Positions 2,434 through 23,621 of a stretch of DNA of 23,621 nt are shown here, piece by piece. Below the pieces are notes generated by a model. The model ran no database searches and was not told where the DNA came from. It saw only the letters and a list, made by a program, of their open reading frames with translations. This stretch comes from a virus. The translations under genes were made by a program, and so were the position numbers. Numbering within the stretch: position 1 is the first letter of the stretch; every line of letters starts with the position of its first letter. The stretch is from the IMG/VR virus record IMGVR_UViG_3300042896_001079, positions 1-23,621 of that record; one strand, written 5' to 3'.

Positions 2434-2629
2434 ATTGAACCCCTTCAATGAAAAACTGCGGTCTACGCGATCAAGATTCAATCAATTCAAGGAATAACTT
2501 GATCCGAGATGATTCTAGCCGAGCAAGATACTTTTCGTCCTATGCACGCTCGGGGTCAAGGTTTCATGTCTCCCGGACGCAGGGTTCTGCGCGGTGCGTT
2601 ATCCTGCACTCCGATGCCTGAGGTAAGAA

Positions 2630-3052: not shown

Positions 3053-3062
3053 CGTCGGAGGA

Positions 3063-3287: not shown

Positions 3288-3382
3288 CACCCTACCCGAA
3301 GCTGTCTTCTGCTGAATGCATAGACGCTTAGGACGCTGCACCCAAGACCTAACCAATCCCCGAAAAATAAAAGGAAATCCCG

Positions 3383-4321: not shown

Positions 4322-4323
4322 TC

Positions 4324-7389: not shown

Positions 7390-8015
7390 TGGCGTTTCAC
7401 GAGGTCAGATTTCCCGACAACATCAGCCGCGGCGCGCGAGGCGGGCCGGAACGGCGCACCCAGATTGTCGAAATGGCGAGCGGCGATGAGGAGCGGAATG
7501 GCTCCTGGGCAGACTCGCGGCGGCGCTATGATGCCTCTTATGGCATTCGCAAAGCCGACGATCTTGCAGCCGTCACAGCGTTTTTTGAGGCGCGGCGTGG
7601 GCGGCTCTACGGGTTTCGGTGGAAAGACTGGGCCGATTACAAGTCCGGCCTGCCGTCCGCCAGCCCCGCTGAGACCGACCAAAGCATCGGCACCGGCACG
7701 GGTGCCGCGACCACATTCCAGCTGGTGAAACGCTACACCAGCGGGGCGCAATCCTGGCCCCGGACAATCACCAAACCCGTGGCCGGAACTATCGCCCTTG
7801 CGCTGAACGGGGTGCCCCAAATCACCGGCTGGACGGTCAATACCACCACCGGCGTCGTGACCTTCGCTGCGGCCCCTGCCCCCGGCATCGCGATCACGGC
7901 CGGTTTCGAATTCGACGTGCCGGTGCGCTTCGACACCGACACGCTGGACGTCACCCTCGATTTCGAGCGGCTGGGCTCGATCACATCCATTCCCTTGATT
8001 GAGGTGCGCCGATGA
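7389..8015 (+). CDS. DUF2460 family distal tail protein (GTA ORFg12-like)
   Basis: The 208-residue product starts MAFHEVRFPDNISRGARGGP, the hallmark N-terminus of DUF2460/TIGR02217 proteins, followed by RRTQIVEMASGDEERNGSWA and a FFEARRGRLYGFRWKDWADY motif. In the Rhodobacter GTA the equivalent protein (g12) is the distal tail hexamer that joins tube and baseplate hub. The C-terminal half is beta-rich and ends FERLGSITSIPLIEVRR. The start overlaps the tape measure stop by one base, and the stop overlaps the next ATG by four bases (ATGA), so translation is coupled. Confidence 0.9.
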   Translation: MAFHEVRFPDNISRGARGGPERRTQIVEMASGDEERNGSWADSRRRYDASYGIRKADDLAAVTAFFEARRGRLYGFRWKDWADYKSGLPSASPAETDQSIGTGTGAATTFQLVKRYTSGAQSWPRTITKPVAGTIALALNGVPQITGWTVNTTTGVVTFAAAPAPGIAITAGFEFDVPVRFDTDTLDVTLDFERLGSITSIPLIEVRR

Positions 8016-8888
8016 AACTTCTCCCAGCAGGCCTGCAGGTCCATTTGGATGACGGCACCACCACGCTGGCGTGGTGTTGGCGGATCGAACGGGCCGATGG
8101 CGCAGTGTTCGGTTTCACCGACCATGATCGCACTTTGCTGATCGTGGGCACCGCCTATGAACCCGACACTGGTTTCGCAGCCTCTGAAATCCGTGCCAGT
8201 GCCGATTTCTCAGTCGACGGGCAGGATGCCGAAGGCGCATTGCGCTCCGACCGGATCACCGAGACCGACATTCTGGACGGGCGCTGGGACAACGCGGCGA
8301 TCGAGGTCTGGCGGGTCAACTGGGAGGATGTGGTGCAGCGCGTCCTCATGCGACGCGGCAATCTCGGCCAGATCAGGCGCGGCAAGCAGGTGTTCGTCGC
8401 CGAGGTGCGGTCGATGACGCATTTACTCAATCAACCGGTCGGGCGAACCTACCAGTATTATTGTGACGCGGAACTCGGCGATGCGCGCTGCGGGGTCAAT
8501 CTGGCGGCACCCAGCTATTCGGGCAGCGGATCGGTGACTGCGGCTTCGGACGTTCACGACCGCGGGCCTTGGCGGTTTCTCCGCGAGCTGGTTTGCCCTC
8601 GGCCGGGTGGAATGGACCAGCGGTGCCAATGCCGGGCGCCGGGCCGAAGTGTCGATCCATGCAAGCACGGCCGGGGTCGCCCAGATCACTTTGATTGAAG
8701 CGCCGGTGCGCGCGATCGCGCCGGGCGATGGGTTTTTTATCCAGGCGGGATGCGACAAGCAGTTCGCGACCTGCGGTGCCAAATTCGGCAATGGCGTGAA
8801 CTTCCGCGGTTTCCCCTCAATCCCGGGCGACGACACCATCGTGCGCTATCCGACGCAAGGCGATGGCAGCACGGGGCAGCCGCTATGA
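8012..8888 (+). pseudogene. DUF2163/TIGR02218 tail hub protein (GTA ORFg13-like), frameshifted
   Basis: The first part (from MKLLPAGLQVHLDDGTTTLA to SGSVTAASD) and the last part (from TFTTAGLGGFSASWFALGRV through VEWTSGANAGRRAEV to the end) are both typical of DUF2163 baseplate hub proteins, but they lie in different frames. The switch falls at about 8546-8552. Without repair, translation from 8012 leaves the family sequence there and stops at 8698 after about 50 unrelated residues. Inserting eight bases, by duplicating CGGACGTT, restores ...ASDVRTFTTAGL... and a protein of about 294 residues, close to the family length. The GTA homologue binds the distal tail ring and the megaprotein, so loss would be expected to stop tail assembly. 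A sequencing error is the main alternative. Confidence 0.8.
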
Positions 8889-9313
8889 TCTTTGCATCTG
8901 CCGACCGGGTTGTCGCCGCTGCACGGGTCTGGCTTGGCACGCCTTACGTGCATCAGGCGAGCGTATTGGGCGCGGGCTGCGACTGCCTCGGTCTTGCCCG
9001 CGGCGTCTGGCGCGACTTACATGGGCCTGAACCTGTCACCCCGCCGCCCTACACCCGCGACTGGGGCGAGGCGGGCGGGGCGGAAGTGCTGGCGGAGGCC
9101 GCGCGGCGCTTCCTATTGGAAATCCCGATCTCGGCGGCCGGGCCCGGGGCGCTGATCCTGTTTCGCATGGCCCGTGGCGCCCCCGCCAAGCATTGCGGCA
9201 TCCGCAGCGAGACCGGCCTGATCCACGCCTACGAGGGCGCGGGCGTCATTGAAGAACCATGGAGCCCGATTTGGGCGCGCAGAGCAGCCTTCGCTTTTCA
9301 CTATCCGGAGTAA
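8885..9313 (+). CDS. NlpC/P60 family phage cell wall peptidase (GTA ORFg14-like)
   Basis: The 142-residue product is a short NlpC/P60 cysteine peptidase. Catalytic residues are visible: Cys34 in GAGCDCLGLARGVW, His103 in AKHCGIRS, and His114 in GLIHAYEGAG as the likely third position. The N-terminus (ADRVVAAARVWLGTPYVHQA) is the usual start of the family. In phage tails and the GTA, this protein sits at the tip and opens peptidoglycan during DNA entry. The ATG at 8885 overlaps the hub gene stop by four bases. A longer frame starting at 8750 merely runs back through the hub gene. Confidence 0.9.
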   Translation: MIFASADRVVAAARVWLGTPYVHQASVLGAGCDCLGLARGVWRDLHGPEPVTPPPYTRDWGEAGGAEVLAEAARRFLLEIPISAAGPGALILFRMARGAPAKHCGIRSETGLIHAYEGAGVIEEPWSPIWARRAAFAFHYPE

Positions 9314-9319
9314 ACCACC

Positions 9320-12300
9320 ATGGCAGCAATCCTTCTCGGCGGCATCGGCTCGGCGCTGGGCGCAGGCTTTGGCGGCACGTTCCTTGGTCTTTCGGGTGCC
9401 GTGATAGGCGGCGGCCTCGGTTCGCTGATCGGCACCGCGATCGACTCTCGCATCATCTCGTCCTTCACGCCCGATCAGCGGCAGGAAGGCGCGCGGCTGG
9501 ATGAATTGCGTGTCACCAGCGCCACTGAAGGCGCGGTGATCCCGAGAGTCTATGGCCGGATGCGGGTCGGTGGCAACATCATCTGGGCCACGGATTTCCG
9601 CGAAGTTTATTCCGAAACCCGCCAGGGCGGCGGCGGAAAAGGCGGCGGTGGCGGCGTGGTGGTCGAGGAGTACAGCTATTTCGCGAGCATCGCTGTCGCA
9701 ATTGCAACCGGGCCGATTGGTGGGATCGGTCGCATCTGGGCCGATGGCAGCGCGTTTGATGTGCCCGGCGCTGTCTGGCGGCTGCACCGCGGCACGGAAA
9801 CCCAGATGCCCGATCCGTTCATCGAAGCGACGATGGGCGCTGGCCTTGCCCCCGCCTATCGCGGCACGGCCTACATCGTGTTCGAAAACCTCGCTTTGGC
9901 GACGTTCGGCAACCGGCTGCCGCAGCTTTCCTTCGAGGTCTATCGCCCCAGCGAGGAGCCCGACAGCGCCGAGCAGCTTCTCACGGCGGTGAACATGATC
10001 CCGTCCTCGGGCGAGTTCATCTACGCCACCGAACCGATCACCCGGGCGGTAAGCGGCGGCGCAGTGCTGCCCGAGAACGTGAATTCGACCGGCGGGCAGT
10101 GCGATTTCCTGACCTCGCTCGATCAGTTGGAAGCCACGGCGCCAAACTGCAAATCGGTGTCGCTCGTGGTGGCGTGGTTCGGCACCGACCTGCGGGCGGG
10201 CAGTTGTCAGATCAGGCCGGGCGTGGAAACCGCGACCAAGGTGACTGCACCGAAGCTCTGGCAGGTAAACGGGGTGGCTCGTTCCGCCGCCTATGTCGTC
10301 TCGCAAATCAGTGGCAGCCCTGCCTATGGCGGAACGCCGAGCGACTTTTCCGTGGTGCAGGCTATTCAGGAACTGAAAGCCCGCGGGTTTCGGGTGACGT
10401 TCTATCCGTTCCTGCTGATGGATGTGCCCGAGGCCAACACGCTGCCCAACCCCTATTCGAACAACGCCGCGGCGCTGGGCCAGCCGAAATACCCCTGGCG
10501 GGGCCGGATCACTTGCTCGCCCGCCGCAGGGTTTGTTGGCACGGTCGACAAGACCGGGGCGGCGTCCAGTCAGGTATCGGCGTTCTTTGGGGCGGCAGTG
10601 CCTGCCAATTTCGCGGTGTCGGGCACGACGGTGTCCTGGACCGGATCGCCTTCCGACTGGGGCCTGCGCCGGATGATGCTGCACTACGCGCACCTCTGTG
10701 TGGCGGCCGGTGGTGTCGATGCATTCCTGATCGGCAGCGAGTTGCGCGGGTTGACCCAGATCCGATCCGGCGCCAGCACCTATCCGGCCGTCACCGCCCT
10801 GCAAAGCCTCGCGGCGGCTTGCCGGTCGATCTTGGGCGCAGGCACCAAGATCAGCTATGCGGCCGACTGGTCGGAATATTTCGGCCACCAGCCACAAGAT
10901 GGTACGAACGATCTGTTCTTTCACCTCGATCCGCTCTGGGCAGATGCCAACACCGACTTCGTCGGCATCGACAACTATATGCCACTGTCGGATTGGCGTG
11001 ACGGCGATCAGCATCTCGACGCCCTCGCAGGCTGGCCCGCGATCTATGATCTGCCCTATCTGCAGTCGAACATCGAAGGCGGCGAAGGGTTCGACTGGTT
11101 CTATGCCTCCGACGCGGATCGCGCCGCTCAGATACGCACGCCGGTCACCGACGGCGCCTATGGCAAGCCATGGGTGTTTCGGACCAAGGATGTCCGTAGC
11201 TGGTGGCAAAATCCGCACTTCAACCGGCCCGGCGGGGTGCAGAGCGGATCGCCAACCGCATGGGTGCCGCAATCGAAACCGGTCCGCTTCACCGAAGCTG
11301 GGGCACCCGCAGTCGATCGCGGCACCAACCAGCCGAACGTGTTCTATGACCCGAAATCCTCGGAATCCTTCCTGCCCTACTTTTCGCGGGGCTATCAGGA
11401 TGATCTCGTGCAGCGGCGATACATCGAGGCACTCTATCCCTATTGGAACGACCCCGCGAAAAATCCAGCATCGGGGCTGTTCGCGGGCCGGATGATCGAC
11501 ACTGCCGAAATCGCCATCTGGACATGGGACGCCCGGCCCTACCCGGCCTTCCCGGTGCGGTCCGACGTCTGGTCCGACATCGACAACTACCGGCTGGGCC
11601 ATTGGCTGACCGGCCGGATCGGCGGCTGCGGCTTGGCCGAGCTGGTCCGCGAACTCTGCCTTACCGGCGGCGTGCCGCTGGATCTGATCGACGTGACGCA
11701 ACTGGCGGCCACCGTACCGGGCTACGCCATCACCGCCATTGAAAGCGCCCGGGCGTCGATTGCGCCGCTGGCGCAGTTCTACGGCTTTGACGTTGTCGAA
11801 ACCGGCGGCCAGTTGCGTTTCGTGCCACGCGGCCGGGCCGCAGTGGCCCAGATCGCCCCCGACACGCTGGTGATCACCGATCGGAACGCGGAGGACATCA
11901 GCTTCACCCGGGCGCAGGAGACCGAATTGCCCCGCGCGTTGAAATGGCGGCTGCTGATGCCGGATGAGGATTATGGATCGCTGTCGGTTGAGGCACGCCG
12001 GATTACGGTCGACACCGCCCGGGTGCGGACCGAGCAGTTTCCGATCGTCTATCCAGCCGCCTTGGCCGATCGGGCGGCACGCCGCTCACTTTATGAGGAA
12101 TGGGTGGGCCGCGAGGATGCCGCCTTTGCCCTGCCGCCGTCCCGTCTGGCACTGGACCCCACCGACGTGATCCGCCTCGAACATGACGACCGGACGCCCG
12201 ACTATGTGATTGCCCGGATCACTGATGGCGGCGCGCGGCGCATTGAGGCCAAGCGCACCGATCAGACCCTCTATGATCTGCCGCCGGGCCCGGAGCGCAC

Positions 12301-13264
12301 TCCGGCCTTCATTGCGCCGACGGTGTTCGGCCCTCCGGCGGCGATCCTGATGAACCTGCCGCAACTGGCCGACGATATCCCGGCCCACCGCCCCTATGCC
12401 GCAGTCTTTGCCGCCCCTTGGTATGGATCGGCGCTGATCTGGCGCAGCCCGTCCAGTGACGGCTTCATGGCGCTGGGCACACTGGGCCAGCCCGCCAGGC
12501 TCGGCACGCTGGCCTTCGACTTCTTTTCCGGACCGGTCTGGCGCTTTGATGATGGCAACGAGCTGTGGGTCGATATCACTGCGGGCACCTTCAGCAACCT
12601 CGACAACGAGGCCTTGCTCGCCGGGGGCAATCCACTTGCGATTGAGGCCGCACCCGGCATCTGGGAGATCATCCAGTTTGGCACCGCCGCATTGCAAAGC
12701 CCCGGCCGTTGGAAGCTGACACACCTCTTGCGCGGCCAGTTCGGGACAGAAGATGCCATCGCCAATCCGGCCCCAGCCGGGGCACAGGTGGTGGTCCTAA
12801 AAAGCGCTGTGGTGCCGGTCGCGATCGTGGAAAGCGATGTCGGCCTGCCCGCGAACTGGCGGATTGGTCCGTCAACGGTCGCAGCCGCCGATCCGCTGAA
12901 CCTGCAACTGGCCTTCACGCCATCAGGGCGCGGCCTGCGCCCGTTCAGCCCGGCGCAGCTGCGCGGGATGCCACAGCCAGGGGGCGATTGGCTGCTGACC
13001 TGGCTGCGGCGCACCCGGGCCAGCAGCGGCGACAGTTGGGTGCTGGTCGATGTGCCGCTTGGCGAAACTACCGAGGCCTATGATCTGGAAATCCTGAACG
13101 GCGCTGCGGTTGTGCGGACAGTGTCCGGAATCGCCATGCCCTCGTTCCTCTACACCGCCGCGATGATGGCCACCGATTTCGGCGGGCCGGTCACAACATT
13201 GCGTTTCCGCGTCTATCAGATCGGCGCGCTGGGCCGCGGAGCGGCCGCCGAAGCCTTCGTCTGA
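9320..13264 (+). CDS. Tail tip/host specificity megaprotein with GTA TIM-barrel-like domain (ORFg15-like)
   Basis: At 1314 residues this is the longest gene. It opens with a Gly/Ala-rich hydrophobic segment (residues about 5-45), then LRVTSATEGAVIPRVYGRMR, typical of tail tip proteins. The central part holds the GTA TIM-barrel-like domain (YAADWSEYFGH near residue 513, FVGIDNYMPLSDWRDG near 550, WTWDARPYPAFPVR near 735). The later part matches the phage-tail_3 region (about 800-1000) and a C-terminal beta-rich region. The GTA homologue is the central baseplate megaprotein that contacts the host receptor. The ATG lies six bases after the NlpC stop. The large antisense frame here is a by-product of codon bias. 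Confidence 0.92.
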   Translation: MAAILLGGIGSALGAGFGGTFLGLSGAVIGGGLGSLIGTAIDSRIISSFTPDQRQEGARLDELRVTSATEGAVIPRVYGRMRVGGNIIWATDFREVYSETRQGGGGKGGGGGVVVEEYSYFASIAVAIATGPIGGIGRIWADGSAFDVPGAVWRLHRGTETQMPDPFIEATMGAGLAPAYRGTAYIVFENLALATFGNRLPQLSFEVYRPSEEPDSAEQLLTAVNMIPSSGEFIYATEPITRAVSGGAVLPENVNSTGGQCDFLTSLDQLEATAPNCKSVSLVVAWFGTDLRAGSCQIRPGVETATKVTAPKLWQVNGVARSAAYVVSQISGSPAYGGTPSDFSVVQAIQELKARGFRVTFYPFLLMDVPEANTLPNPYSNNAAALGQPKYPWRGRITCSPAAGFVGTVDKTGAASSQVSAFFGAAVPANFAVSGTTVSWTGSPSDWGLRRMMLHYAHLCVAAGGVDAFLIGSELRGLTQIRSGASTYPAVTALQSLAAACRSILGAGTKISYAADWSEYFGHQPQDGTNDLFFHLDPLWADANTDFVGIDNYMPLSDWRDGDQHLDALAGWPAIYDLPYLQSNIEGGEGFDWFYASDADRAAQIRTPVTDGAYGKPWVFRTKDVRSWWQNPHFNRPGGVQSGSPTAWVPQSKPVRFTEAGAPAVDRGTNQPNVFYDPKSSESFLPYFSRGYQDDLVQRRYIEALYPYWNDPAKNPASGLFAGRMIDTAEIAIWTWDARPYPAFPVRSDVWSDIDNYRLGHWLTGRIGGCGLAELVRELCLTGGVPLDLIDVTQLAATVPGYAITAIESARASIAPLAQFYGFDVVETGGQLRFVPRGRAAVAQIAPDTLVITDRNAEDISFTRAQETELPRALKWRLLMPDEDYGSLSVEARRITVDTARVRTEQFPIVYPAALADRAARRSLYEEWVGREDAAFALPPSRLALDPTDVIRLEHDDRTPDYVIARITDGGARRIEAKRTDQTLYDLPPGPERTPAFIAPTVFGPPAAILMNLPQLADDIPAHRPYAAVFAAPWYGSALIWRSPSSDGFMALGTLGQPARLGTLAFDFFSGPVWRFDDGNELWVDITAGTFSNLDNEALLAGGNPLAIEAAPGIWEIIQFGTAALQSPGRWKLTHLLRGQFGTEDAIANPAPAGAQVVVLKSAVVPVAIVESDVGLPANWRIGPSTVAAADPLNLQLAFTPSGRGLRPFSPAQLRGMPQPGGDWLLTWLRRTRASSGDSWVLVDVPLGETTEAYDLEILNGAAVVRTVSGIAMPSFLYTAAMMATDFGGPVTTLRFRVYQIGALGRGAAAEAFV

Positions 13265-13295
13265 TCCTTTCCCCTAAAACCTTGGAGGCATTGGC

Positions 13296-15224
13296 ATGAG
13301 CCAATCCACGAATCTTGCGCTGCCCTATCTCGGGGCCAGCCAATCGCAAAAGCATGTCACGGTGAACGAGAGCCTGCGGTTTCTCGATGTGCTGGTGCAG
13401 ATCGCTATCAAAAGTGCTGCCCTGTCCGCCCCGCCAGGCGCGCCAGCCGACGGCCAGCGCTGGATCATCGGGCCCGCCCCCACCGGTCTCTGGGTCGGGC
13501 GCGCGACCCAGATCGCCGCCTGGCAGGACGGGGCGTGGGTCTTCTATGCCCCGAAGGATGGCTGGCTTGCCTGGAACGAGGCCACGCTCAATTCGCTGGT
13601 GTTCAGCGCGGGGGCATGGGTGTCGCTGATTGGTGCGCTATTGGCCGCGGGCGTGGCCGATAGCGCCTTCACGCTGACCGATGATGCCGATCCGTCCAAG
13701 AAAGCGACGTTCGAACTGGCAGGCATCACCACTGGCACGACCCGGACCTTTACCCTGCCCAACACCACCAGCGAGTTGGCGATCCTCGCAGGCACCCAGA
13801 CCTTTACGGGCAACAAGACGTTCACCGGCACGCTGACAGCCTCCGGCACGGTAACGGTTTCCGCGGCGGCCGCCACGATCGGCACGGCCACCACGACTGC
13901 CACCTACGGCATGGGCACCGGTGCAACGACGACCGGCCTGACCAAGACCGTCAACCTAGGCACCGGTGGCGCGTCGGGATCGACCACGGTCGTGAACATC
14001 GGCCCGGTCGCGGCAGGCGCAGGCGGCACGACGGTGGTGAATACGCCGACGGTCACCTTTGCCAATGCGGTCACGCAGGTCGGCATGCCGCAGGCAAACC
14101 TCACCTCGCAGCTGCTGGGCCTCGGTGGCGCCACCGCCGACAGCTATAACCGGATGTCGATCAACACCCCGGCCATGCTCTTCAACAACGCCGGTGCCGG
14201 GATCGAGGCAACGGTCAACAAGGCGGCCCCCGCCAATGACGCGGCCTTCGCCTTCAAGACCGGGTTTTCTGCGCGGGCGCTGATCGGGCTGCTGGGCGGC
14301 GACAACTTCGGCTTCAAGGTCAGCCCGGACGGCTCAGCCTTCTTTGACGCCATCACCATCGACCGCAGCAATGGTCAGGTCGAACTGCCGCAGCCCACCA
14401 TCCTGCCAGGACTGGCCGCAGCCCCTTCCCCGCCGCCGACGGGAAAGATCGCGGTCTATGCCCGCAACCGCGCAGGCGCGCCGTGGGTCGATGTCATGCG
14501 CCCGTCCGGACGGGATTTCCCGCTGCAGCCGCATTTCGGGGTGAACCGGATTGCGAACTGGTCGCCGTCGGTCACCACCACGATCACCACCGAAGGTCTG
14601 CCGATCACTTCCGTCGGCACGGTCTCGCATCCCACACTGGCAGCCACCAACCTCGCGGCCAGCATGCGGCGCTGGCGTCTGACCTCGGCTGCAGTGGTGG
14701 ATTCGGTCGCAGAACAGCGATCTGCGGGCTGGGCCTGCTGGCGCGGCAATGCGGCAGGCCTCGGCGGCTGGACCTTCGTCACCCGGCTCTCATTGACCAC
14801 ACTGCAGGCGACCGGGATGGGATTTTTCGGCCTCTATGGCTCCACGGCCGCGCTGGCCGCCACACTGACCCTGGCCACAGTGCTGAATTGCATCGGCATC
14901 GGCTTTCAGCGCGGCACCCATGCCAACTGGCAGCTGGTGGCCAATGACGGCACCGGCGCACCGACCCTTACCGACCTGGGCGCCAGCTTTGCCATCGCGA
15001 CCGGCGGGGTGCTGACGCTCTATGTCGCTGCAGCACCGAATGCCGCCTCGGTCTGGGTCCGGCTGGTCAATGAGGTTTCGGGCGCCGTGTTTGAGGCCGA
15101 AATCACCGCCGATCTGCCCGCCAACACGCAGTTCCTCTCGCCCCGCCTTTACCTAAACACCGGCGCCACCGCGGCGGCCGTCGCCTACGACTGCTCCGGC
15201 GTCTACGTCGAAACCGATTATTGA
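13296..15224 (+). CDS. Tail fibre/receptor-binding protein with N-terminal DUF2793 domain
   Basis: The 642-residue product begins MSQSTNLALPYLGASQSQKH, the DUF2793 signature, and this domain spans about residues 1-110 (including DGWLAWNEATLNSLVFSAGA). Residues about 165-255 are Gly/Thr repeats such as GTGGASGSTTVVNIG, which look like a fibrous trimeric beta-structure. The C-terminal 190 residues form a Thr/Ala-rich beta domain likely to be the receptor-binding tip. A GGAGG site lies about 7 bases before the ATG. Position straight after the tail tip gene supports a fibre or spike role. The receptor is unknown. Confidence 0.85.
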   Translation: MSQSTNLALPYLGASQSQKHVTVNESLRFLDVLVQIAIKSAALSAPPGAPADGQRWIIGPAPTGLWVGRATQIAAWQDGAWVFYAPKDGWLAWNEATLNSLVFSAGAWVSLIGALLAAGVADSAFTLTDDADPSKKATFELAGITTGTTRTFTLPNTTSELAILAGTQTFTGNKTFTGTLTASGTVTVSAAAATIGTATTTATYGMGTGATTTGLTKTVNLGTGGASGSTTVVNIGPVAAGAGGTTVVNTPTVTFANAVTQVGMPQANLTSQLLGLGGATADSYNRMSINTPAMLFNNAGAGIEATVNKAAPANDAAFAFKTGFSARALIGLLGGDNFGFKVSPDGSAFFDAITIDRSNGQVELPQPTILPGLAAAPSPPPTGKIAVYARNRAGAPWVDVMRPSGRDFPLQPHFGVNRIANWSPSVTTTITTEGLPITSVGTVSHPTLAATNLAASMRRWRLTSAAVVDSVAEQRSAGWACWRGNAAGLGGWTFVTRLSLTTLQATGMGFFGLYGSTAALAATLTLATVLNCIGIGFQRGTHANWQLVANDGTGAPTLTDLGASFAIATGGVLTLYVAAAPNAASVWVRLVNEVSGAVFEAEITADLPANTQFLSPRLYLNTGATAAAVAYDCSGVYVETDY

Positions 15225-15236
15225 AGGACAAACCCC

Positions 15237-15545
15237 ATGGATGAGAAAACCACGATCTTGCAGGAGGTTGGCGCTGCTTTCCGCGACCACGGCGTGACCG
15301 CCGCGATCACAGCCCTTATCGGCGGCACGATCGCGCTGCTGGCCGCGGTCACGCGCAAGGCCTTTACCAACGACGCCATGCTGGCCCGGCTCGACCGGGA
15401 ACTCGCGGCGGAGCGTGACCGCGCCGATCGCCAGCGGGCCGAGGACCGCGACGACGATGCCGATCGGCTGGAACGCATCGAGACCGATATCCGCGCGATG
15501 CGCGATCTGATGTTTGAGGCCTTCCAGCGCGGCCGCACCGACTGA
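15237..15545 (+). CDS. Small protein with one membrane helix and charged coiled coil, possible lysis accessory
   Basis: The 102-residue product has one hydrophobic helix (about residues 19-38, TAAITALIGGTIALLAAVTR) followed by a strongly charged helical region (LDRELAAERDRADRQRAEDR and on), likely a coiled coil. It follows the fibre gene by 12 bases behind GAAGGA and precedes a terminator and the endolysin gene. This layout suggests a membrane protein of the lysis cassette, for example a holin-like or pinholin-type partner. No specific family was recognised, so the role is inferred from context only. Confidence 0.6.
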   Translation: MDEKTTILQEVGAAFRDHGVTAAITALIGGTIALLAAVTRKAFTNDAMLARLDRELAAERDRADRQRAEDRDDDADRLERIETDIRAMRDLMFEAFQRGRTD

Positions 15546-15579
15546 GAACCCGACCAACATTCCGATCCACCCGCACCTG

Positions 15580-15598
15580 CCCGCAAGGCGGGTTTTTT
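15580..15598 (+). terminator. Rho-independent terminator after the tail/lysis junction
   Basis: CCCGC, loop AAG, GCGGG form a five-pair G+C stem followed directly by six T residues. It stands 35 bases after the stop of the membrane protein gene and 33 bases before the endolysin ATG, so it may end or attenuate the structural transcript ahead of the lysis genes. Confidence 0.65.
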
Positions 15599-15630
15599 CA
15601 TGCCCGGCGACGGGCGAAAGGAGCCACCCC

Positions 15631-16284
15631 ATGAATATCGACACCCGCGATCCCCTCCGCTTGATCCAAAGCGGGCTGGAAAAGCTCGGCCATTCCCCCG
15701 GCGCCATTGATGGCCTCTGGGGCCTGCGCACCGCCCGGGCGATGAAAGCTCTGCTAGCCGCGAACGGTCGCGCGGCATCCGTGGCACCGCCCGGCCCGCT
15801 GCCCTGGATCACCGAAGCCAAATCCGCCCTCGGCCGTCACGAGGCCCGCGACCGGTCCTGGTTGATGGATTGGCTGAAACGCGACGGCCGGTCGCTGGGC
15901 GATCCCTCGAAGAACACGTGGTGCGGGGACTTCGTGGAAACCTGCATCCGCATGGCACTGCCCGACGAACCGCTGCTCGGCGCGCTGGGCACCAACCCCT
16001 ATTGGGCCCGGCATTGGTTGCAGTTCGGGCGCGAGGTGCAGCCGATCATCGGTGCCGTGCTGATCTTCGAACGCGGGTCCGGTGGCCACGTCGGTTTCGC
16101 GATCGGCCAGGACGATGCGCATTTCTATGTGCTGGGCGGCAACCAGTCCGACGCCGTGACCATCGCACGTGTCGCCAAGTCCCGCCTCCTCGGCGCGCGC
16201 TGGCCCGCAACCTACCCGCCCCGACAACTGCGCCTGCCGACGATGAAGCCGGGCGAATTCCTCGCAACCACCAATGAAACTTGA
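15631..16284 (+). CDS. Phage endolysin, TIGR02594/CHAP-like peptidase with N-terminal peptidoglycan-binding-like region
   Basis: The ATG at 15631 has AAAGGAG about 8 bases upstream and gives 217 residues; a longer frame from 15514 crosses the terminator and was rejected. Residues about 8-46 (LIQSGLEKLGHSPGAIDGLW...) resemble a peptidoglycan-binding type 1 repeat. The rest matches TIGR02594 proteins: Cys98 in NTWCGDFVETC as nucleophile, His153 in GGHVGFAIG, and Asn171 in LGGNQSDAV as the third residue. It should cut peptide bonds in peptidoglycan to release phage. The next gene, a small holin-like protein, starts 13 bases later. Confidence 0.85.
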   Translation: MNIDTRDPLRLIQSGLEKLGHSPGAIDGLWGLRTARAMKALLAANGRAASVAPPGPLPWITEAKSALGRHEARDRSWLMDWLKRDGRSLGDPSKNTWCGDFVETCIRMALPDEPLLGALGTNPYWARHWLQFGREVQPIIGAVLIFERGSGGHVGFAIGQDDAHFYVLGGNQSDAVTIARVAKSRLLGARWPATYPPRQLRLPTMKPGEFLATTNET

Positions 16285-17032: not shown

Positions 17033-17614
17033 ATGGCCCATATCAGCTTCACCGAAAAACTGCCGACCGACGCGCGCCAGTATTATATGCAGGCGGGAGG
17101 CTTTGTGCTGCTGCGCTTCGTGAAAGACAGCGAGAGCTTCTCTGTCATGACAGCCACAGCCTCAGAGGACAAACCCCACGCGCCTGGGCCGGAGCGGGAG
17201 CATCTCAGGCAGGTCATCTTCCGGCGCGCCGACGGCAGCCCTGCCATACCCTTGAAGCCGAAGGCACCCGTGCCAGAAGCCATGCTTGCAAAGGTATACC
17301 CCGACGCGGCGGCCCTGATTGGGGCAGCTGAGGTGGCCCTGCAAGGCATTGGCAGCCTTGTGAAGCACCGAAAGGACCAGTGGGGACGACGCTACGTTGT
17401 CGTGCACGACGTCTCCGACCCGACTGAAATGCGCCATGCGGCCAACCGTGTTGCGAAGGCACTTGGGCTAGAGGCCGTCGACACGCCATGGATCGTCGAA
17501 GCGGCCGACAAGGAGATGAGGGACATCTATGAAGAGTTCGCGATTGACGATCTCGGCGGAGACGCTTTCCTCAACGATGGCGTCTGGATAACGAAGGACG
17601 GCAAGCTGGTCTGA
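17033..17614 (+). CDS. Hypothetical protein of unknown function
   Basis: The ATG at 17033 is preceded by AGGAG at a good distance and opens a 193-residue frame of ordinary codon use: MAHISFTEKLPTDARQYYMQ, a middle acidic/basic mix, then YVVVHDVSDPTEMRHAANRV and a C-terminal end FLNDGVWITKDGKLV. No membrane segment or signal peptide is visible. I did not recognise a family. It stands alone between the lysis genes and a transposase remnant, which suggests cargo DNA rather than phage structure. Confidence 0.65.
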   Translation: MAHISFTEKLPTDARQYYMQAGGFVLLRFVKDSESFSVMTATASEDKPHAPGPEREHLRQVIFRRADGSPAIPLKPKAPVPEAMLAKVYPDAAALIGAAEVALQGIGSLVKHRKDQWGRRYVVVHDVSDPTEMRHAANRVAKALGLEAVDTPWIVEAADKEMRDIYEEFAIDDLGGDAFLNDGVWITKDGKLV

Positions 17615-17660
17615 TCGGGATCGCCGGGCGCACTCGGCCGCGACGGCGACGGCGACGGCG

Positions 17661-17836
17661 CTGCAATCACACCACTTCCGCTCGGATGAAACAGGAAACC
17701 AAGCTGCACCGCTATGTGCTGCTCTACAACCAGCAGCTGCAGCAAAACGCCCTTGCAGGCACTCGAGGATTGGCACAAACTGCAGCCGGACATGTTCAGG
17801 AAACAACCTTACTACCTGCCAGGATGTGATAACTAG
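17661..17836 (+). pseudogene. Remnant of the C-terminal end of a DDE transposase/integrase (IS481-like)
   Basis: Three short pieces in different frames match the end of a known transposase type: LQSHHFRSDE at about 17661-17690, then ETKLHRYVLLYNQQLQQNAL at about 17695-17754, then LQALEDWHKLQPDMFRKQPY and YLPGCDN with stop at 17834-17836. Homologues read continuously through ...LHRYV.LYNQQLPQSAL....LQA..DWHK..P.LF.K.PY..PGCD. At least two frame disruptions make this a dead remnant. The IS481 assignment is from memory of the motif. The short CGACGG repeat just upstream (about 17640-17660) has no clear meaning. Confidence 0.7.
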
Positions 17837-17901
17837 GCCAATTGGACGGAATAGGGCGACCTCTTTCTTCTTAAAATTTGTCGAAAGGCGATTCCAAATT
17901 T

Positions 17902-17928
17902 TTGGCAACGTCATCGTACGCATAATTC
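17902..17928 (+). promoter_or_regulatory. Weak candidate promoter for the two-gene polymerase operon
   Basis: TTGGCA at 17902-17907 and TAATTC at 17923-17928 are 15 bases apart, 17 bases before the ATG at 17945, in an A+T-rich stretch. Spacing is short and the match is modest, so this is only a candidate. Confidence 0.25.
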
Positions 17929-17944
17929 AGGGAAACAGGTCGAG

Positions 17945-18898
17945 ATGAGCAACGATCATGATGACTCGTTGGTTTGGGTAAGTGACTTGGATGATTACGT
18001 AGATATCCGAGCTATACCCGACGAAGGAATGGAAGAAGAAGAAGCGATCGCCCTAAACGATTTGCTGGATGAACTTGGGGAGTTCCCACTCTTTTCAGGC
18101 AAATCCATTTCCGCGAGAGCGCTTAATGATCGCGGCATATCTCCGGACAAATGGCTTTGGGCAAAACATGAAGCAGAACATGCACTTCATGAACAGTTCG
18201 ACTGGAGCCGTATAGAACTTCTCTTGGTCAAAGACCTGCTTTCCTTGGGCAGGCGTTATGCTGTGGCGCGATACGCAAAATGGGAGAGTATCTCCTATCA
18301 TGCTGCCTTGACTGCCACCTTTCCGCACGGTTTCAGAGCACTTCTTGACCAATTTCTAGACGGGCAAAAAGGCTTCGAATCCATCGAGCAGCGGCGTTCG
18401 ATCCATTCGTCTCTGCAACGCGTTTCTTCAGCAGATGGTCTGACTGCCTATCACCGAACAGGCATATTGCAATTAGCAATACACAAGAGCGCGAATGATG
18501 CGTTCGCATACCTATGTCTAGAGAAAAATGCGATGAGAAACATTCTCTCGCTCGCCCGCCTGCACTATTCAGTTTGCGAGATAGGTGGCCTCAACCTACT
18601 CGGACTACGGTGTCTCGAACAATCGTACAAGAACGCTCGAATCGAGACTATGCGCCAGATCGATCATCGCTCGCCAATCGGCCGTCGGCATATCCAGAAC
18701 TGGACGCTAAGACATCATCATCCTCTAACTTATCTCTATCCGTACGCAATCCGGCATGCGATCGCTCGAGGCATTGCCGATCGGGAGGCTAAGTTCGAAC
18801 CAACAAACCGTTCTATCGCGGTGAACGAGCTCGCTCTGGCGCACTGCGGGATCTGGCTGATGAGGCAGACCGCCAAAAGTAGCGCTGGCTACCTATGA
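17945..18898 (+). CDS. Unrecognised 317-residue protein, first gene of the polymerase operon
   Basis: The first ~45 residues are strongly acidic (SDLDDYVDIRAIPDEGMEEE and on), and the rest is helical and basic, rich in His and Arg (for example IGRRHIQNWTLRHHHPLTYL). No membrane segment, nuclease or helicase motif was recognised. HEAEH at residues 75-79 resembles the HExxH zinc motif, but the charged inner residue makes that weak. The stop overlaps the ATG of the polymerase-like gene by four bases (ATGA), so the two proteins are probably made in fixed ratio and act together. In phi29-type genomes the terminal protein gene lies directly before the polymerase, so a primer-protein role is one idea; a defence effector or regulator is another. 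Confidence 0.8.
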   Translation: MSNDHDDSLVWVSDLDDYVDIRAIPDEGMEEEEAIALNDLLDELGEFPLFSGKSISARALNDRGISPDKWLWAKHEAEHALHEQFDWSRIELLLVKDLLSLGRRYAVARYAKWESISYHAALTATFPHGFRALLDQFLDGQKGFESIEQRRSIHSSLQRVSSADGLTAYHRTGILQLAIHKSANDAFAYLCLEKNAMRNILSLARLHYSVCEIGGLNLLGLRCLEQSYKNARIETMRQIDHRSPIGRRHIQNWTLRHHHPLTYLYPYAIRHAIARGIADREAKFEPTNRSIAVNELALAHCGIWLMRQTAKSSAGYL

Positions 18899-20676
18899 GC
18901 AGTGTCTTTCGTTTCCAGTGCCCTACGGCCATTGCACCGGGAAACACTGAGAAACTGCTTCGCAAACGAAAGCGGCGGGAAGTTATTGATCTAATTCCAA
19001 TAGCGGCGGATTCATCCTCGATTACGGATACTAACGGCACATGGCCGATTGAAGCGTATAGGAACTTTGCCGCTGGACGTCGTGTCACGCTCACCCGCAT
19101 AGAAGCAGATCTCATCGCTATTGCTAATCCTGGCGTACGACCTCCAGCGGTACTGGAAGACGATCACCCTTGGCTTCCACGAATGCCTTTCCTGAGTAAT
19201 TCCGAGGCGAACTTTAGATCCCTCAACTCCATCATCCGTCTTTACGGTCGCCACTTGGTTACTGCCGCCGCCTTCTGCGATGTGAAGTGGAACACCATTT
19301 GCAACGCGATCCGGACGAAGAACGATATGGATGCGCGATTTTACACAGCATGGCACCTGCCAATCCAAGACGTCTTTATCCTTGAAGAACTCCGCCTTGA
19401 CCGAAGCGTAGTCGCCATCGACTTCAACGCCATGTATTCCGCTTGCATGCAGCAGCGGTTCCCAAAGTCTGCAGCGATGCGATATATCTCTTACAATAGG
19501 GACGTCAGATCGGACGAATGCTTACCAATTGGACTTTACCGTTGCGTTCTTCGGAACCCATTCTCCGACTTCATTTGGAAGCACAACCCTTTTCGTAGCT
19601 TCTTCTCGGGGCGGCACCTTCAAACAATGCTATCAGAACCGGTCGAGGTGGATCTCCATGAGTTTGAAGTTGATTTCTTTAGACGCCATTTCAAACACAT
19701 ACATTTGATAGATGCCGTGATATCAGATCAAAGCATCGAGCACCCTCTGGCGCGAGAAGTTCGACGTTCCTTCGCGCGTCGCAAGCACTACCATGCGCAG
19801 GGCAACAAACCGCTTGCCGATCGCGAAAAATACCTCGCAACGTTGATGTCATCATGCTCACAAAGGCCCAGCAGATCGCGCCGAATCTTTGGGTCGCGAA
19901 ATGGTGCGGACGAATACCTCCTAAATAACTACGGCATAAAATCCAACGCGGATGAGCCTGATAGCGCTTCGGAAATCTGGCTCCGGGGGCGGAAGGGTAT
20001 AACCGCGGCGGTAACGCCGAACGGCCTGACCGTTGATGCACCAGATCTTCTTGATGGTACGGCTCATTTTCTGCTAAATCAGCGGATCGTCGCCCGGGGA
20101 CGTATTTGCATTCTCGAAGCAATGGAAAGGATATCTAATAGCGTGCCCGACGTAGAAATTTGTTACGTCAATATCGATTCTATTCACTTCTCGCTTCCGA
20201 CTATCCATCTTGCGAATACACTGGCGTCTCTTGAGGCTGAAGCGTCAAAGGAAATGGGCTCATTCAGGATTGAATCTGTCACCCGCCATGGTCTCTGGCT
20301 CGAGCCCGGTCGGTATTGGCTATATAGCGAAATCGTCGAGAAGTTTAGAAATCGGGGTGTCAGTGATCGGGTTAAGCCTTTTAAGGATCACGCCATCCAT
20401 GTCACGAGCAGGAAGATCGGCGATCTTCATATTCCCATCAGGATGACAATCCGGATGGATAGGACCATGTCCGATACGAGATCTGTCATCGACGATGTGC
20501 ATGTTGGAATCGCTCGACAGAGCCTGATTGAGGTTGGTAACGCTAGCTCGTTTGTCGGCGTCTTGGAGCAATTAGATGTAAACCAAAAGACTTCGATCTC
20601 GAAGCGCATTCGCGCATTTGAGGATCTGCGCGTGCGCGTCGATAGAAAAACGTCCCGCTGCCTCGGGACGAGTTAA
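18895..20676 (+). CDS. Divergent family B (phi29-like) DNA polymerase without recognisable exonuclease motifs
   Basis: The 593-residue protein carries the family B palm motifs in order. Motif A is IDFNAMYSACM with Asp176 (compare DVNSLYPAQM in phi29). A degenerate motif B lies near Lys312 (EKYLATLMSS, for KxxxNSxYG). Motif C is YVNIDSIHF with Asp428 (compare YCDTDSIHL). WLEPGRYWLYSE near residue 470, followed by RNRGVSD, resembles the KxY segment. The two aspartates that bind metal in this family are kept; the first Asp of DTD is Asn. Only 175 residues precede motif A, against about 248 in phi29, and no DxE exonuclease motif is visible. G+C is lower than in the phage genes. It may synthesise DNA in a defence system or replicate a protein-primed element. 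Confidence 0.72.
   Translation: MSSVFRFQCPTAIAPGNTEKLLRKRKRREVIDLIPIAADSSSITDTNGTWPIEAYRNFAAGRRVTLTRIEADLIAIANPGVRPPAVLEDDHPWLPRMPFLSNSEANFRSLNSIIRLYGRHLVTAAAFCDVKWNTICNAIRTKNDMDARFYTAWHLPIQDVFILEELRLDRSVVAIDFNAMYSACMQQRFPKSAAMRYISYNRDVRSDECLPIGLYRCVLRNPFSDFIWKHNPFRSFFSGRHLQTMLSEPVEVDLHEFEVDFFRRHFKHIHLIDAVISDQSIEHPLAREVRRSFARRKHYHAQGNKPLADREKYLATLMSSCSQRPSRSRRIFGSRNGADEYLLNNYGIKSNADEPDSASEIWLRGRKGITAAVTPNGLTVDAPDLLDGTAHFLLNQRIVARGRICILEAMERISNSVPDVEICYVNIDSIHFSLPTIHLANTLASLEAEASKEMGSFRIESVTRHGLWLEPGRYWLYSEIVEKFRNRGVSDRVKPFKDHAIHVTSRKIGDLHIPIRMTIRMDRTMSDTRSVIDDVHVGIARQSLIEVGNASSFVGVLEQLDVNQKTSISKRIRAFEDLRVRVDRKTSRCLGTS
20646..20670 (-). terminator. Candidate leftward rho-independent terminator
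   Basis: CGTCCCG at 20651-20657 and CGGGACG at 20664-20670 form a perfect seven-pair stem with a six-base loop. On the minus strand it is followed by TTTTT, so it could end leftward transcription just before it runs antisense into the polymerase gene. It overlaps the last codons of that gene. On the plus strand no T-run follows. Confidence 0.45.
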
Positions 20677-21055
20677 AAGTTCCAGTTTCAAATGGACCGT
20701 AGGTCTCCCGCAAGGGGCGTGTTCGGAGAACACTGACCGCAGGAACGGACGAGCCGGGCAGATCCTGCGAATATCAAGGTACAGGACGTTAGAATATAAT
20801 ACCAGCGCCATATAAGGATGCCGACTTGGCTCCCGACCCTGGAAGCCATTGCCGCGGTTCCGCCCTCCCCGGGGAACGAATTGGATACCGGCGCATGAAA
20901 AGCGACAGCATGCTGACCTTCGCCTAGGTCGGCACGCCGGGGGCTGTCCGCGTCGCAACTCGGCCTATTTTGTTGACCTATTGTTGACCCAGCCGGGCGG
21001 TATACAAACACCCCACAAGATTTCTCTTGCAGAGTATTGTTATTCAACGATTTTT
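20677..21055. other. Gene-free segment before the attachment site
   Basis: I see no convincing gene here. It contains a perfect palindrome GTGTTC-GGA-GAACAC at 20719-20733 that could be an operator, a TATAAT-like hexamer near 20795, a 26-codon frame from 20818 (MPTWLPTLEAIAAVPPSPGN) too short to judge, and two direct copies of TTGTTGACC at 20970-20978 and 20981-20989, eleven bases apart. Confidence 0.5.
20970..20989. repeat. Tandem TTGTTGACC repeats, candidate integrase arm sites
   Basis: Two copies of TTGTTGACC begin eleven bases apart, about one helical turn, 67 bases left of the tRNA fragment. A similar pair, GTTGATGT at 21243 and 21254, also eleven bases apart, lies on the other side. 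Arm-type binding by a tyrosine integrase is inferred. Confidence 0.4.
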
Positions 21056-21103
21056 TGGTTGCGGGGGCAGGATTTGAACCTGCGGCCTTCAGGTTATGAG
21101 CCT
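21056..21103 (-). other. 3' half of tRNA-fMet(CAT), attachment site core
   Basis: Read on the minus strand, the segment contains AGGCTCATAACCTGAAGG (anticodon arm with CAT), GCAGGTTCAAATCCTGC (T arm) and CCCCGCAACCA (acceptor strand with encoded CCA), as in an initiator tRNA. The 5' half is missing: upstream on the minus strand there is no CGCGGGG acceptor partner and no D arm. Such 3' fragments arise when a tyrosine integrase recombines at a tRNA gene. Because the tRNA reads leftward, an element using this copy as its end extends to the right, or two elements meet here. Confidence 0.78.
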
Positions 21104-21180
21104 ATAATCCAACGATTCCAATAAGTTATGAAAACCAGCTACTTAGCCACTAAGCCTTTGATTTCGCCAATTTCCCGACC

Positions 21181-21261
21181 CCGCATTCGCCGATATTCGC
21201 CCGCATTCGTCTGCAAACACAGCGCTAAACGTGCATTCGCGGGTTGATGTGGTGTTGATGT
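21181..21261. repeat. Helically phased ATTCG repeats and GTTGATGT pair next to the attachment core
   Basis: ATTCG occurs at 21185, 21195, 21205 and 21235, all in steps of ten bases, within units like CGCATTCGCC. They are followed by GTTGATGT at 21243 and 21254. The phasing places the copies on one face of the helix, as expected for protein-binding arrays such as integrase or repressor sites. The whole stretch 21104-21416 otherwise shows no supported gene. Confidence 0.45.
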
Positions 21262-21416
21262 AGACGATCTCTGCGCTCCGCATGGCCTTAATCGCAAACG
21301 GCCCTCTTCTGCCGTTCGTCGTCGGTAGCATGCTGCTTTGCAACTTCACCGAACCGGCCACTCGTGGATCGCGCTGCATTTTTTGCTACCGACTGTCGCT
21401 AATGCGGGCGAAGCGG

Positions 21417-21883
21417 TCAGTCTTGTTCAGGCAAAAACGCTTTTCTGATTGCCTCAGAGAACGCCCTAAGACGCGCAGGATTCAACTTGAGTTCATCCCG
21501 CAATGACTTCGGAACTTCAACCTGAACGCCACTCCCTGTGCGCCCTCGGTTACAAATGTTGTTTGGATGAGCACCGGCAAGATCCCCGGACTTAACCTCA
21601 GCGGAAAAACCGGCAAGTTTGATTTGCTCTTCCATCCTTTCCAGAGTCGGAGCGTCTAGTCCGCCCAACCAAACAGTTTCGGGATCATCGCGGTCGCTGC
21701 GGCCGTGGATTGCAACAACAACTTCGCACTTTCCTGTAGCATCAATAGCCTGCGACTCGTCATACTTGTGAGATGTGACGTGCAAGTCGCCGTGCGGCCT
21801 TTTCCGAAGACCCTCGAAACAGTAAAGTGACAAGTCTCCTCCGGCGATGTCAAATGCAATCTCGGATGTCCCTGGCTCAATTT
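21417..21883 (-). pseudogene. Poly-gamma-glutamate hydrolase family gene, C-terminal fragment (interrupted by IS)
   Basis: On the minus strand this codes KIEPGTSEIAFDIAGGDLSL, then GDLHVTSHKYDESQA, EVVVAIHGRSDRDDPETVWL and GAHPNNICNRGRTGSGVQVE, which is the recognisable body of the poly-gamma-glutamate hydrolase family (PF05908, YjqB-like). Known members are zinc-dependent enzymes that cut poly-gamma-glutamate and are often carried by phages, where they clear a capsule. The Glu of GTSE and the His of TSH and IHG are present. The first 42 residues lie beyond the IS at 23116-23241, and joining the halves gives about 197 residues, near the family length. The insertion removes the start, so the gene should be inactive. 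Confidence 0.82.
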
Positions 21884-21910
21884 TGGACCTGTCCCGGTTT
21901 CGTTCCGGTC
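21884..21910 (+). repeat. IS3 element left terminal inverted repeat
   Basis: It starts TGGACCTGTCCCGG and ends TTCCGGTC. It differs from the complement of the right repeat at positions 11, 17 and 18 only. Confidence 0.85.
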
Positions 21911-21946
21911 TTTTGAGAGCAATACTCGCCATCAAGGAGACCGGAT

Positions 21947-22222
21947 ATGGCAGCGATACACAGCGACGAGTTCAAGCGGGATGCAGTTCGCATCGCGACG
22001 ACCAGCGGCCTGACGAAGCGTCAGGTTGCGTCTGATTTGGGGGTTGGTCTTTCGACCCTGAACAAATGGGTGAAGATGGTTTCTGATGAGGCAGGTCCGC
22101 CCGATCCAGACCAGAACCTTTTGCGCGAGAACGAACGGCTTCGGCGTGAGAACCGGATTCTCAAGGAGGAGAGGGAGCTGCTAAAAAAGGCCACGCAATT
22201 CTTCGCGGCCCAAAAGCCGTGA
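21947..22222 (+). CDS. IS3-family transposase OrfA (helix-turn-helix protein)
   Basis: The 91-residue product begins MAAIHSDEFKRDAVRIATTS and contains the helix-turn-helix LTKRQVASDLGVGLSTLNKW (about residues 22-41), which binds the IS ends. The second half, ENERLRRENRILKEERELLK, is a leucine-zipper-like coiled coil that mediates OrfA/OrfAB pairing. GGAG lies upstream of the ATG. It contains an in-phase A AAA AAG and ends in a GTGA overlap with OrfB. OrfA alone usually regulates transposition; the fusion OrfAB is the transposase. Confidence 0.93.
   Translation: MAAIHSDEFKRDAVRIATTSGLTKRQVASDLGVGLSTLNKWVKMVSDEAGPPDPDQNLLRENERLRRENRILKEERELLKKATQFFAAQKP
22183..22189 (+). promoter_or_regulatory. 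A AAA AAG slippery site for OrfAB -1 frameshift
   Basis: The OrfA codons are CTA AAA AAG, so the heptamer is in phase. The -1 frame is open from 22189 (GGC CAC GCA) through the OrfB GTG at 22219, which allows a continuous OrfAB transposase, the known IS3-family mechanism. Confidence 0.8.
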
Positions 22223-23076
22223 AGTTCGCGTTTCTGGATGATTATCGCGGCGCGCTTTCCAGGGCGCATGCCTGCCGCGTCATGGGGGTCACTGATCGTG
22301 GTCTTCGGGCCTGGAAACACCGCCCTGTATCCCATCGGCAGCGGCGCGATATGGTGCTTTTGGCGCATATCCGCAACCAGCACAGATTGAGCCAGGGCAG
22401 TTATGGTCGCCCCCGAATGACGGAAGAGCTGAACGAATTGGGATTGCGTGTCGGGCACCGTCGAGTTGGGCGTCTGATGCGACAAAACGCGATTTGCGTG
22501 ATCAGAACCCATAAATTCAAAGCAACTACGGACACCGACCACACATTCAACATCGCGCCAAATCTCTTGCAGCAGGATTTTGCTGCGAGCCAACCCAACC
22601 AGAAATGGGCCGGTGACATCACCTATGTCTGGACGCGCGAAGGCTGGGTCTATCTGGCCGTCATCCTGGACCTGCATTCCCGCCGGGTGATCGGATGGGC
22701 CATCAGCAACCGGATGAAGAAAGACCTGGCGATCCGCGCCCTCAACATGGCAATTGCCCTGCGCAGGCCCCCGAAGGGCTGCATTCACCACACAGACCGC
22801 GGCAGCCAATACTGTTCGCACGACTATCAAAAGATCCTGAGAAAACATGGTCTGACAGCGTCCATGAGCGGAAAGGGCAATTGCTATGACAACGCAGCTG
22901 TCGAGAGCTTTTTCAAATCCATCAAAGCCGAAATGATCTGGCGCAGAAACTGGCAGACACGAAGAGAGGTCGAAGTCGCCATTTTCGAATACATCAACGG
23001 CTTCTACAATCCGCGACGCCGACATTCAGCCTTGGGTTGGAAAAGCCCCGTGGCCTTCGAACGCAAGGCCGCCTAA
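22219..23076 (+). CDS. IS3-family transposase OrfB (DDE integrase core)
   Basis: The 285-residue product has an HTH_21-like segment (GSYGRPRMTEELNELGLRVG, about residues 54-73) followed by the rve core with the DDE triad: Asp in WAGDITYVWT, Asp in HHTDRGSQYCS, and Glu in NCYDNAAVESFFKSIKAE. The C-terminal YINGFYNPRRRHSALGWKSP is the standard end of IS3 transposases. The GTG start overlaps the OrfA stop, so it may be made alone or as the OrfAB fusion. No frame break is visible, so it may still be active. Confidence 0.94.
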   Translation: MKFAFLDDYRGALSRAHACRVMGVTDRGLRAWKHRPVSHRQRRDMVLLAHIRNQHRLSQGSYGRPRMTEELNELGLRVGHRRVGRLMRQNAICVIRTHKFKATTDTDHTFNIAPNLLQQDFAASQPNQKWAGDITYVWTREGWVYLAVILDLHSRRVIGWAISNRMKKDLAIRALNMAIALRRPPKGCIHHTDRGSQYCSHDYQKILRKHGLTASMSGKGNCYDNAAVESFFKSIKAEMIWRRNWQTRREVEVAIFEYINGFYNPRRRHSALGWKSPVAFERKAA

Positions 23077-23087
23077 CATGAGCACGT

Positions 23088-23114
23088 GACCGGAACAGAA
23101 CCGCGACAGGTCCA
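23088..23114 (-). repeat. IS3 element right terminal inverted repeat
   Basis: On the minus strand it reads TGGACCTGTCGCGG and ends TTCCGGTC. The stop of OrfB lies 12 bases before it. Confidence 0.85.
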
Positions 23115-23115
23115 G

Positions 23116-23241
23116 TTTTCCTCCGTGAGGTGCCATGATCAAGACGTCCGATCCTCTATCCTCGACCATTATGCGGTAATCAATTCCGCGCTTTTCTTGT
23201 GCAAAAAGCTGTTTGAAGTTAGAATATTGGTCGGCATTCAT
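23116..23241 (-). pseudogene. Poly-gamma-glutamate hydrolase family gene, N-terminal fragment
   Basis: On the minus strand the ATG at 23241 opens MNADQYSNFKQLFAQEKRGI, then DYRIMVEDRGSDVLIMAPHG, running to GGK where the IS begins. DYRI..EDRGS.VLI.APHGG is the conserved start of the poly-gamma-glutamate hydrolase family, with the metal-binding His of APHGG. It joins in frame, after removal of the IS and one target copy, to KIEPGTSE on the other side. GAGAG lies about 10 bases before the ATG. Translation of the present sequence would run a short way into the IS. Confidence 0.8.
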
Positions 23242-23621
23242 TTTGGCGCTCTCGAAAAGTTCAGTTCTTCTAAACTGGTGAATGCATCGCCTGTCTGCAA
23301 TGGGCTCCAAGCAGCCTTGCGGCAGTGCAGCTTGACCCCGCTGACTCGCCAAAGTCAATCATCGACGTGCCCAACCCTTTGCCGCCAATCGGCCCTTGAT
23401 GAATGCCGCAGTGCAGCTTCCCCAAAACGGGCATCCGTGGTTGCGCCAGCGAAGTCGCTTCCAACACCCGACTTGTGCAAACTTGGGTTCTCCGACGCAG
23501 ACCACCTTGATCCCACAAGCGGTCGTCAAAGCTTTTATCTAGCGAACTTTGGCGCGGCGCATTCGAGTAGACAGCGCCCCGTCAGGTCCTGCCTTGCCGC
23601 CTGAAAGTGCGAATAACGGAT
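23242..23621. other. Terminal segment without a supported gene
   Basis: Frames in this stretch have no convincing start or protein-like composition. GCAGTGCAGCTT occurs twice, near 23322 and 23408, in the same direction, which suggests duplicated intergenic or decayed sequence. The promoter of the poly-gamma-glutamate hydrolase gene should lie at its left end but was not identified. Confidence 0.4.

Follow-up and report, generated by a model that had tools for sequence, protein, structure and literature searches.

A tRNA-fMet fragment between two unlike repeat pairs in a viral record probably marks the junction of two stacked prophages

The window takes in an entire linear virus record (23,621 bases). 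It carries late genes of a phage that we call phage A, a fragment of a tRNA gene with a pair of short repeats on either side, and a right-hand part that we assign, on the evidence given below, to a second element, element B. Its features are the following (coordinates in the window, strand, description).

62..16284, plus strand: tail and lysis module of phage A, from library matches and matches to relatives
4981-7389, plus strand: tape measure gene
9320-13264, plus strand: gene for a GTA TIM-barrel-like tail protein
15514-16284, plus strand: lysin gene
17033..20676, plus strand: right-end cargo bay of phage A, with three ORFs (193, 317, and 593 aa)
20972..20991, plus strand: left arm pair GTTGACCTATTGTTGACCCA, two direct repeats with an 11-bp period, putative right-end arm sites of phage A; the same pair occurs in relatives
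21056..21103, minus strand: putative attachment-site core, the 3' 48 nt of tRNA-fMet, identical to the 3' part of the intact gene at locus L109
21104..21261, plus strand: putative left-end flank of element B, unlike the A-type left end
21243..21262, plus strand: right arm pair GTTGATGTGGTGTTGATGTA, putative left-end arm sites of element B, at offset 139
21417..23358, minus strand: poly-gamma-glutamate hydrolase gene in two parts (21417-21935 and 23026-23358), in what would be B's cargo bay
21884..23114, plus strand: IS3-type insertion with ORFs at 21947-22222 and 22219-23076 and with rve and HTH domains

The initial annotation had placed phage late genes to the left of the core, which is where the tail and lysis module indeed lies. 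The nearest named phages to its TIM-barrel-like protein are those of Rhodobacter capsulatus, RcKai, RcHotPocket, and their relatives, which share this protein with the window (59% over 97% for phages such as RcKai); a near nucleotide search returned no match between that group and the window. Among the loci compared, the nearest relatives of phage A were L113, in the genome of an uncultured lake Rhodobacteraceae (G005; TIM-barrel protein 93.8%, next gene 95.5%, lysin 90%), and L109, in Fertoeibacter niger (G006; 89.5% for the lysin and 97%, over 300 aa, for the gene that follows the TIM-barrel gene). The left arm of the window, GTTGACCTATTGTTGACC, which belongs to the GTTGACCTATT class, is found at these two loci as well. 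To the right of the core, the window holds only the hydrolase gene and the insertion sequence and ends 2.4 kb beyond the right arm; no tyrosine integrase was found within its 23.6 kb. The insertion, which we read as a member of the IS3 family from its rve and HTH domains and its terminal inverted repeats (21/24 positions), splits the hydrolase gene, an unsplit relative of which lies in phage contig L045 (7473-8063, 85% at the amino acid level).

Next, we looked into the tRNA fragment. Positions 21056-21103 match the 3' part of the intact gene at L109 (19176-19252, called as tRNA-Met(CAT) by ARAGORN), which we take, by its sequence, to be an initiator tRNA; the block of identity between the two runs from 21053 to 21103, and the core covers the gene from anticodon to CCA. 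The 5' part of the gene (GACGAGCTACC...) is absent at the window core, and neither ARAGORN nor Rfam found a complete tRNA in the window, so that the fragment is, as had been proposed, a 3' piece lacking its 5' half. The core was present in 41 viral stretches. Among cores, letters of the T stem vary pairwise by eye (gggggcagg..cctgcgg, gggggtagg..cctacga, ggggacagg..cctgtga), and these paired changes seem to mirror allelic variants of tRNA-fMet in the hosts.

The repeats beside the core were also where the initial annotation had put them, as pairs with an 11-bp period on both sides. On the left, GTTGACC occurs at 20972 and 20983, with the 8-mer TTGTTGAC at 20970 and 20981; on the right, GTTGATG occurs at 21243 and 21254, with the 8-mer GTTGATGT at those same positions. 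In 20,000 Markov shuffles, an exact 8-mer repeated at an 11-bp period arose in 0.4% of cases for the left side and 0.3% for the right side. We rejected a chance origin because the pairs recur at constant offsets from the core in related sites. The GTTGACCTATT left pair was also found in L055/L113, L109, L112, L170, L185, L040, and L111, and a right pair identical to the window's was found in L087 (Rhodovulum strictum), where it adjoins a reverse-oriented tyrosine integrase. The left and right motifs of the window differ from each other at 6 of the 7 letters and fall into different motif classes. The proposal that copies of CAACGATT at 21045 and 21110 frame the core like an integrase site was not supported: an 8-mer shared as closely as these copies arose in 1.3% of shuffles, and since the left copy appeared, by eye, in no other of the loci compared, we give CAACGATT no meaning.

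To place this arrangement among its relatives, we surveyed sites with the same core. Our starting point was plasmid pRA03 from Roseicitreum antarcticum, in which similarity to the window extends beyond the tRNA fragment. Scanning bacterial and archaeal genomes once with the core and right arm yielded 62 stretches, most of them from Rhodobacterales according to their record titles; viral contigs, scanned twice, yielded 62 with the left arm and 6 with the right arm. All loci combined made 135 sites that were distinct over 60 bases on each side, so that any site truncated by a contig end may count twice. The left arm was present in 99 of the 135 sites, at an offset of -117 to -121 from the core in 97 of them, and the right arm in 68, at an offset of 138 to 141 in 53 and of 148 to 150 in the other 15. 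Downstream of the left arm came an intact tRNA (58 sites), a right arm (32 sites), or neither (9 sites); an intact tRNA followed the right arm in 0 of 68 sites, and of the 59 right-arm sites in which a left arm was present or the sequence ran 140 bases or more leftward, 32 had a left arm. By comparison of these sites, the layout is that of an integrase attachment site in the 3' half of a tRNA gene, with the fixed-distance pairs resembling the arms of a tyrosine-integrase attachment site; left arms are the right ends of elements and right arms their left ends. The two right-arm distance groups, at about 139 and 149 bases from the core, lie roughly one helical turn apart, the latter farther out, and where an integrase was paired with an arm of the 148-to-150 group, it pointed forward in every case.

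We then asked whether the arms on opposite sides of a core belong to one element or to two, comparing them at seven motif letters. Both ends could be read in ten elements (one each in G008, G012, G015, G017, and G026, two in G016, two in G014, and one in G006), and the mismatches between an element's own ends were, in this order, 1, 0, 0, 0, 0, 5, 1, 0, 4, and 1 (mean, 1.2). Among the 32 cores with both arms, the window included, the mean mismatch across the core was 3.44, compared to 3.54 after random re-pairing, and the left and right motifs were identical at the compared letters in 6. Own ends were more alike than the two sides of 34 other junctions, a set that excludes the window and consists of 31 both-arm sites and three further junctions (Mann-Whitney test, P value = 0.004, uncorrected for kinship). 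Because own ends mostly match and both-arm sites pair as if at random, the arms on opposite sides of a core mostly come from two neighbors. The stretches in G016 (116 kb) and G014 (97 kb) had been considered as breaches of the one-motif pattern and were set aside as such, since each holds a further core ending in GAGCCG; each consists of two tandem prophages with that core between them. Once they were split at the extra core, two of the four resulting elements had matching ends (mismatches of 0 and 1), but the ends of the other two were unlike (5 and 4), and these two exceptions among the ten show that the arms of one element can diverge.

The arms also go with the integrases. Across 29 distinct integrase/right-arm pairs, likeness over the N-terminal 65 aa of the integrase tracked likeness of the right arm (Mantel test, 2,000 permutations, r = 0.69, P value = 0.0005, uncorrected for kinship), as would be expected if the N-terminal domain reads the arm. 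For GTTGATGTGG arms with the second repeat GTTGATGTA, 7 of 7 distinct integrases pointed back to the core from 2.9 to 11.6 kb away. Integrases of the relatives, in both classes, gave tyrosine recombinase matches below curated cutoffs.

With this background, the window can be read against the possibility, also raised in the initial annotation as an attP-like site, that its site is the attP of a single phage, carried on a free circle, a concatemer, or a plasmid, in a mosaic whose arms have diverged or been swapped. Both arms do flank the core, as they would in an attP, and the ends of one element were unlike in 2 of 10 cases. A possible precedent is pRA03, a circular plasmid with a single core whose arms differ at 6 of 7 letters. 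Pieces of phage flank its core on either side, and its backbone is of the repABC type; it may therefore be either a junction that has been transplanted or the broken circle of one phage whose arms are unlike. Against a single attP, the window's two arms do not share the motif of one integrase, a rule with exceptions in those 2 of 10 elements, and a mismatch of 6 was reached by none of the ten. Moreover, the A-like element in G006 (32137-49222) has GTTGACCTATT at both ends and the intact tRNA-fMet at its right end, and the flank of its left end is unlike the window's right flank. This G006 element is itself a remnant, in which the integrase gene is cut and directly joins the middle part of the gene that follows the TIM-barrel gene. 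The cut falls near residue 110 of the integrase (L133, 8002-8346, and L109, 12796-14584, on contig C12), and the N-terminal piece of an integrase is located in the neighboring element, about 34 kb from the remnant. Taking the 6 of 7 mismatch together with the G006 element, we assign the two half-sites of the window to different elements.

The closest relative of phage A bears on the same question. In G005, the core downstream of phage A is followed by an arm of another class, then an integrase, and then a second tail module about 63% alike. By this order of genes, G005 holds two prophages in tandem; a circular form of phage A in G005 was ruled out by that second tail module past the junction. 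That the closest relative has another prophage next to it speaks against the single-attP reading. We consider the single attP an unlikely alternative, at roughly one chance in nine.

Weighing these observations, we regard the window as a hybrid junction, in which the attR of phage A is fused with the attL of element B and two elements are stacked at one tRNA-fMet gene; we put the probability of this reading at about 85%. It is the best reading because the right ends of A-type relatives vary in their partner, meeting an intact tRNA in L109 and a second prophage in G005, and because the window's arms belong to two classes. The suggestion in the initial annotation of a tandem integration, with the intact tRNA beyond the right edge, is in line with both observations. 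A reading in which phage A alone integrated, with host DNA to its right or a decayed remnant that resembles an element end, could draw on the fact that, transposase aside, the sole gene on that side of the core is interrupted by the insertion. The right end of phage A should then adjoin an intact tRNA, however, and the right flank looks like an element end: positions 21055-21261 are 93.2% identical to L061, the left end of an element in Pararhizobium antarcticum with no left arm beside it, and in 7 of 7 distinct cases the integrase accompanying the right-arm class is reverse-oriented. A decayed element B would, in addition, still make a tandem, and we hold an A-only integration to be very improbable. 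Least probable of all, with hardly any weight in our estimate, is an assembly chimera of two contigs joined at the shared core. Such a core is common to many elements, so an assembler could in principle have joined two of them there, but in G005 this phage type is joined, at the corresponding place, to a different element, tandem pairs are found in other assemblies (G014 and G016), and cores with unlike arms occur in G015 and G017.

The tandem junction could have arisen as follows. The attP of phage A would have recombined with the 3' half of tRNA-fMet, leaving the phage's right end with its own GTTGACCTATT arm sites beside the core, and element B would have integrated at that core by means of its own integrase and GTTGATGTGG arms, an order of events that we infer. 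Each integration would copy the 3' half of the tRNA, and therefore the inner copy would be truncated and the copy at the far right would be the intact gene. The repeats would presumably bind the N-terminal domains of the integrases. Element B should carry a reverse-oriented tyrosine integrase a few kilobases past the window, and an intact tRNA-fMet should lie at its far end, as is seen at the outer end in relatives.

Between the lysin gene of phage A and the core, the window and the closest relative differ: the stretch 16461 to about 20950 is absent from that relative. The ORFs of 193, 317, and 593 aa within it had no match in Pfam, PHROG, NCBIfam, or PADLOC. For the 593-aa ORF, no relatives were found in the viral contigs or in the phage collection, and comparison to solved structures gave weak matches only (E values of 0.6 and above). 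It contains DFNAMYSACM and CYVNIDSIHF, which by eye we take to resemble motifs A and C of family-B DNA polymerases. Among 390 genomes drawn from the order of G008, two had a relative of this ORF: in G241, a protein 53% alike is located after a relative of the 317-aa ORF, and G336 has a fragment, with a GTTGA arm pair and a partial core located about 2.5 kb to its right.

In relatives, the stretch between core and integrase carries varied genes. We scanned 31 of the 83 ORFs from 26 of these bays (one per bay, nearly always the largest, plus five), counting as defense genes those with a PADLOC family match at an E value below 1e-20 other than to WYL or DEDDh. A matching ORF was present in 16 of the 26 bays (L010, L043, L069, L070, L071, L083, L085, L087, L088, L093, L106, L110, L115, L142, L145, and L150), as a raw count. 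The matched families include GajA, GajB, an oligonucleotide cyclase, PDC-S25, Dsr1, HerA, LmuB, and DrmD. Because the bays of relatives often carry known defense genes, the unmatched module of the window is a candidate of the same kind. We tentatively suggest, as a possibility that we rate below even odds by a wide distance, that tRNA-fMet in Rhodobacterales and their neighbors serves as a stacking platform, with a shared core and private arms read by each element's own integrase; that the flanks are exchangeable, defense-rich cargo bays, a junction thereby forming a composite defense island; and that the three-ORF module of the window, with its polymerase-like motifs, is an undescribed defense system.

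Tandem prophages at tRNA genes are already known, and the window as read here adds a case at tRNA-fMet. In Mycobacterium abscessus, prophages prophiT36-2a and prophiT36-2b lie in tandem at a tRNA-Thr gene, virions of each have been detected, and the authors argue for two integrase-mediated events (PMC9934374). The window is like that pair in having two different phages with closely related cores at one tRNA gene and a central attR/attL hybrid; it is unlike it in host, tRNA, and phages, and arm sites as motif tags are not among the features of the pair in the passages of that paper which describe it (PMC9934374). Tandem accretion has also been described for ICEs, IMEs, and CIMEs (PMC5704250), which are conjugative or mobilizable elements, whereas the elements here are prophages, mostly of Rhodobacterales. 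In Sinorhizobium meliloti, certain tRNA genes are integration hot spots, with one double insertion into a tRNA-Lys gene (PMC11476347). Alphaproteobacterial tRNA genes are repeated targets in both cases, but the hot spots named in the relevant passages on S. meliloti are genes 010, 030 (tRNA-Asn), and 039 (tRNA-Lys), not tRNA-fMet (PMC11476347). We found no paper on tandem prophages at tRNA-fMet or in Rhodobacteraceae in the open-access library searched.

The unmatched module of the window would be a candidate worth testing, given the defense genes in the bays of relatives. In fragmentary viral contigs, the mismatch between arms offers a simple sequence-based aid in distinguishing a tandem junction from an attP, and it would be useful where the intact tRNA lies out of sight. 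Because the core is common to these elements while the arm motif and the N-terminal domain of the integrase vary together, stacking and single exit are both conceivable: a single tRNA gene can accumulate phages that are unrelated, yet these could in principle leave singly.
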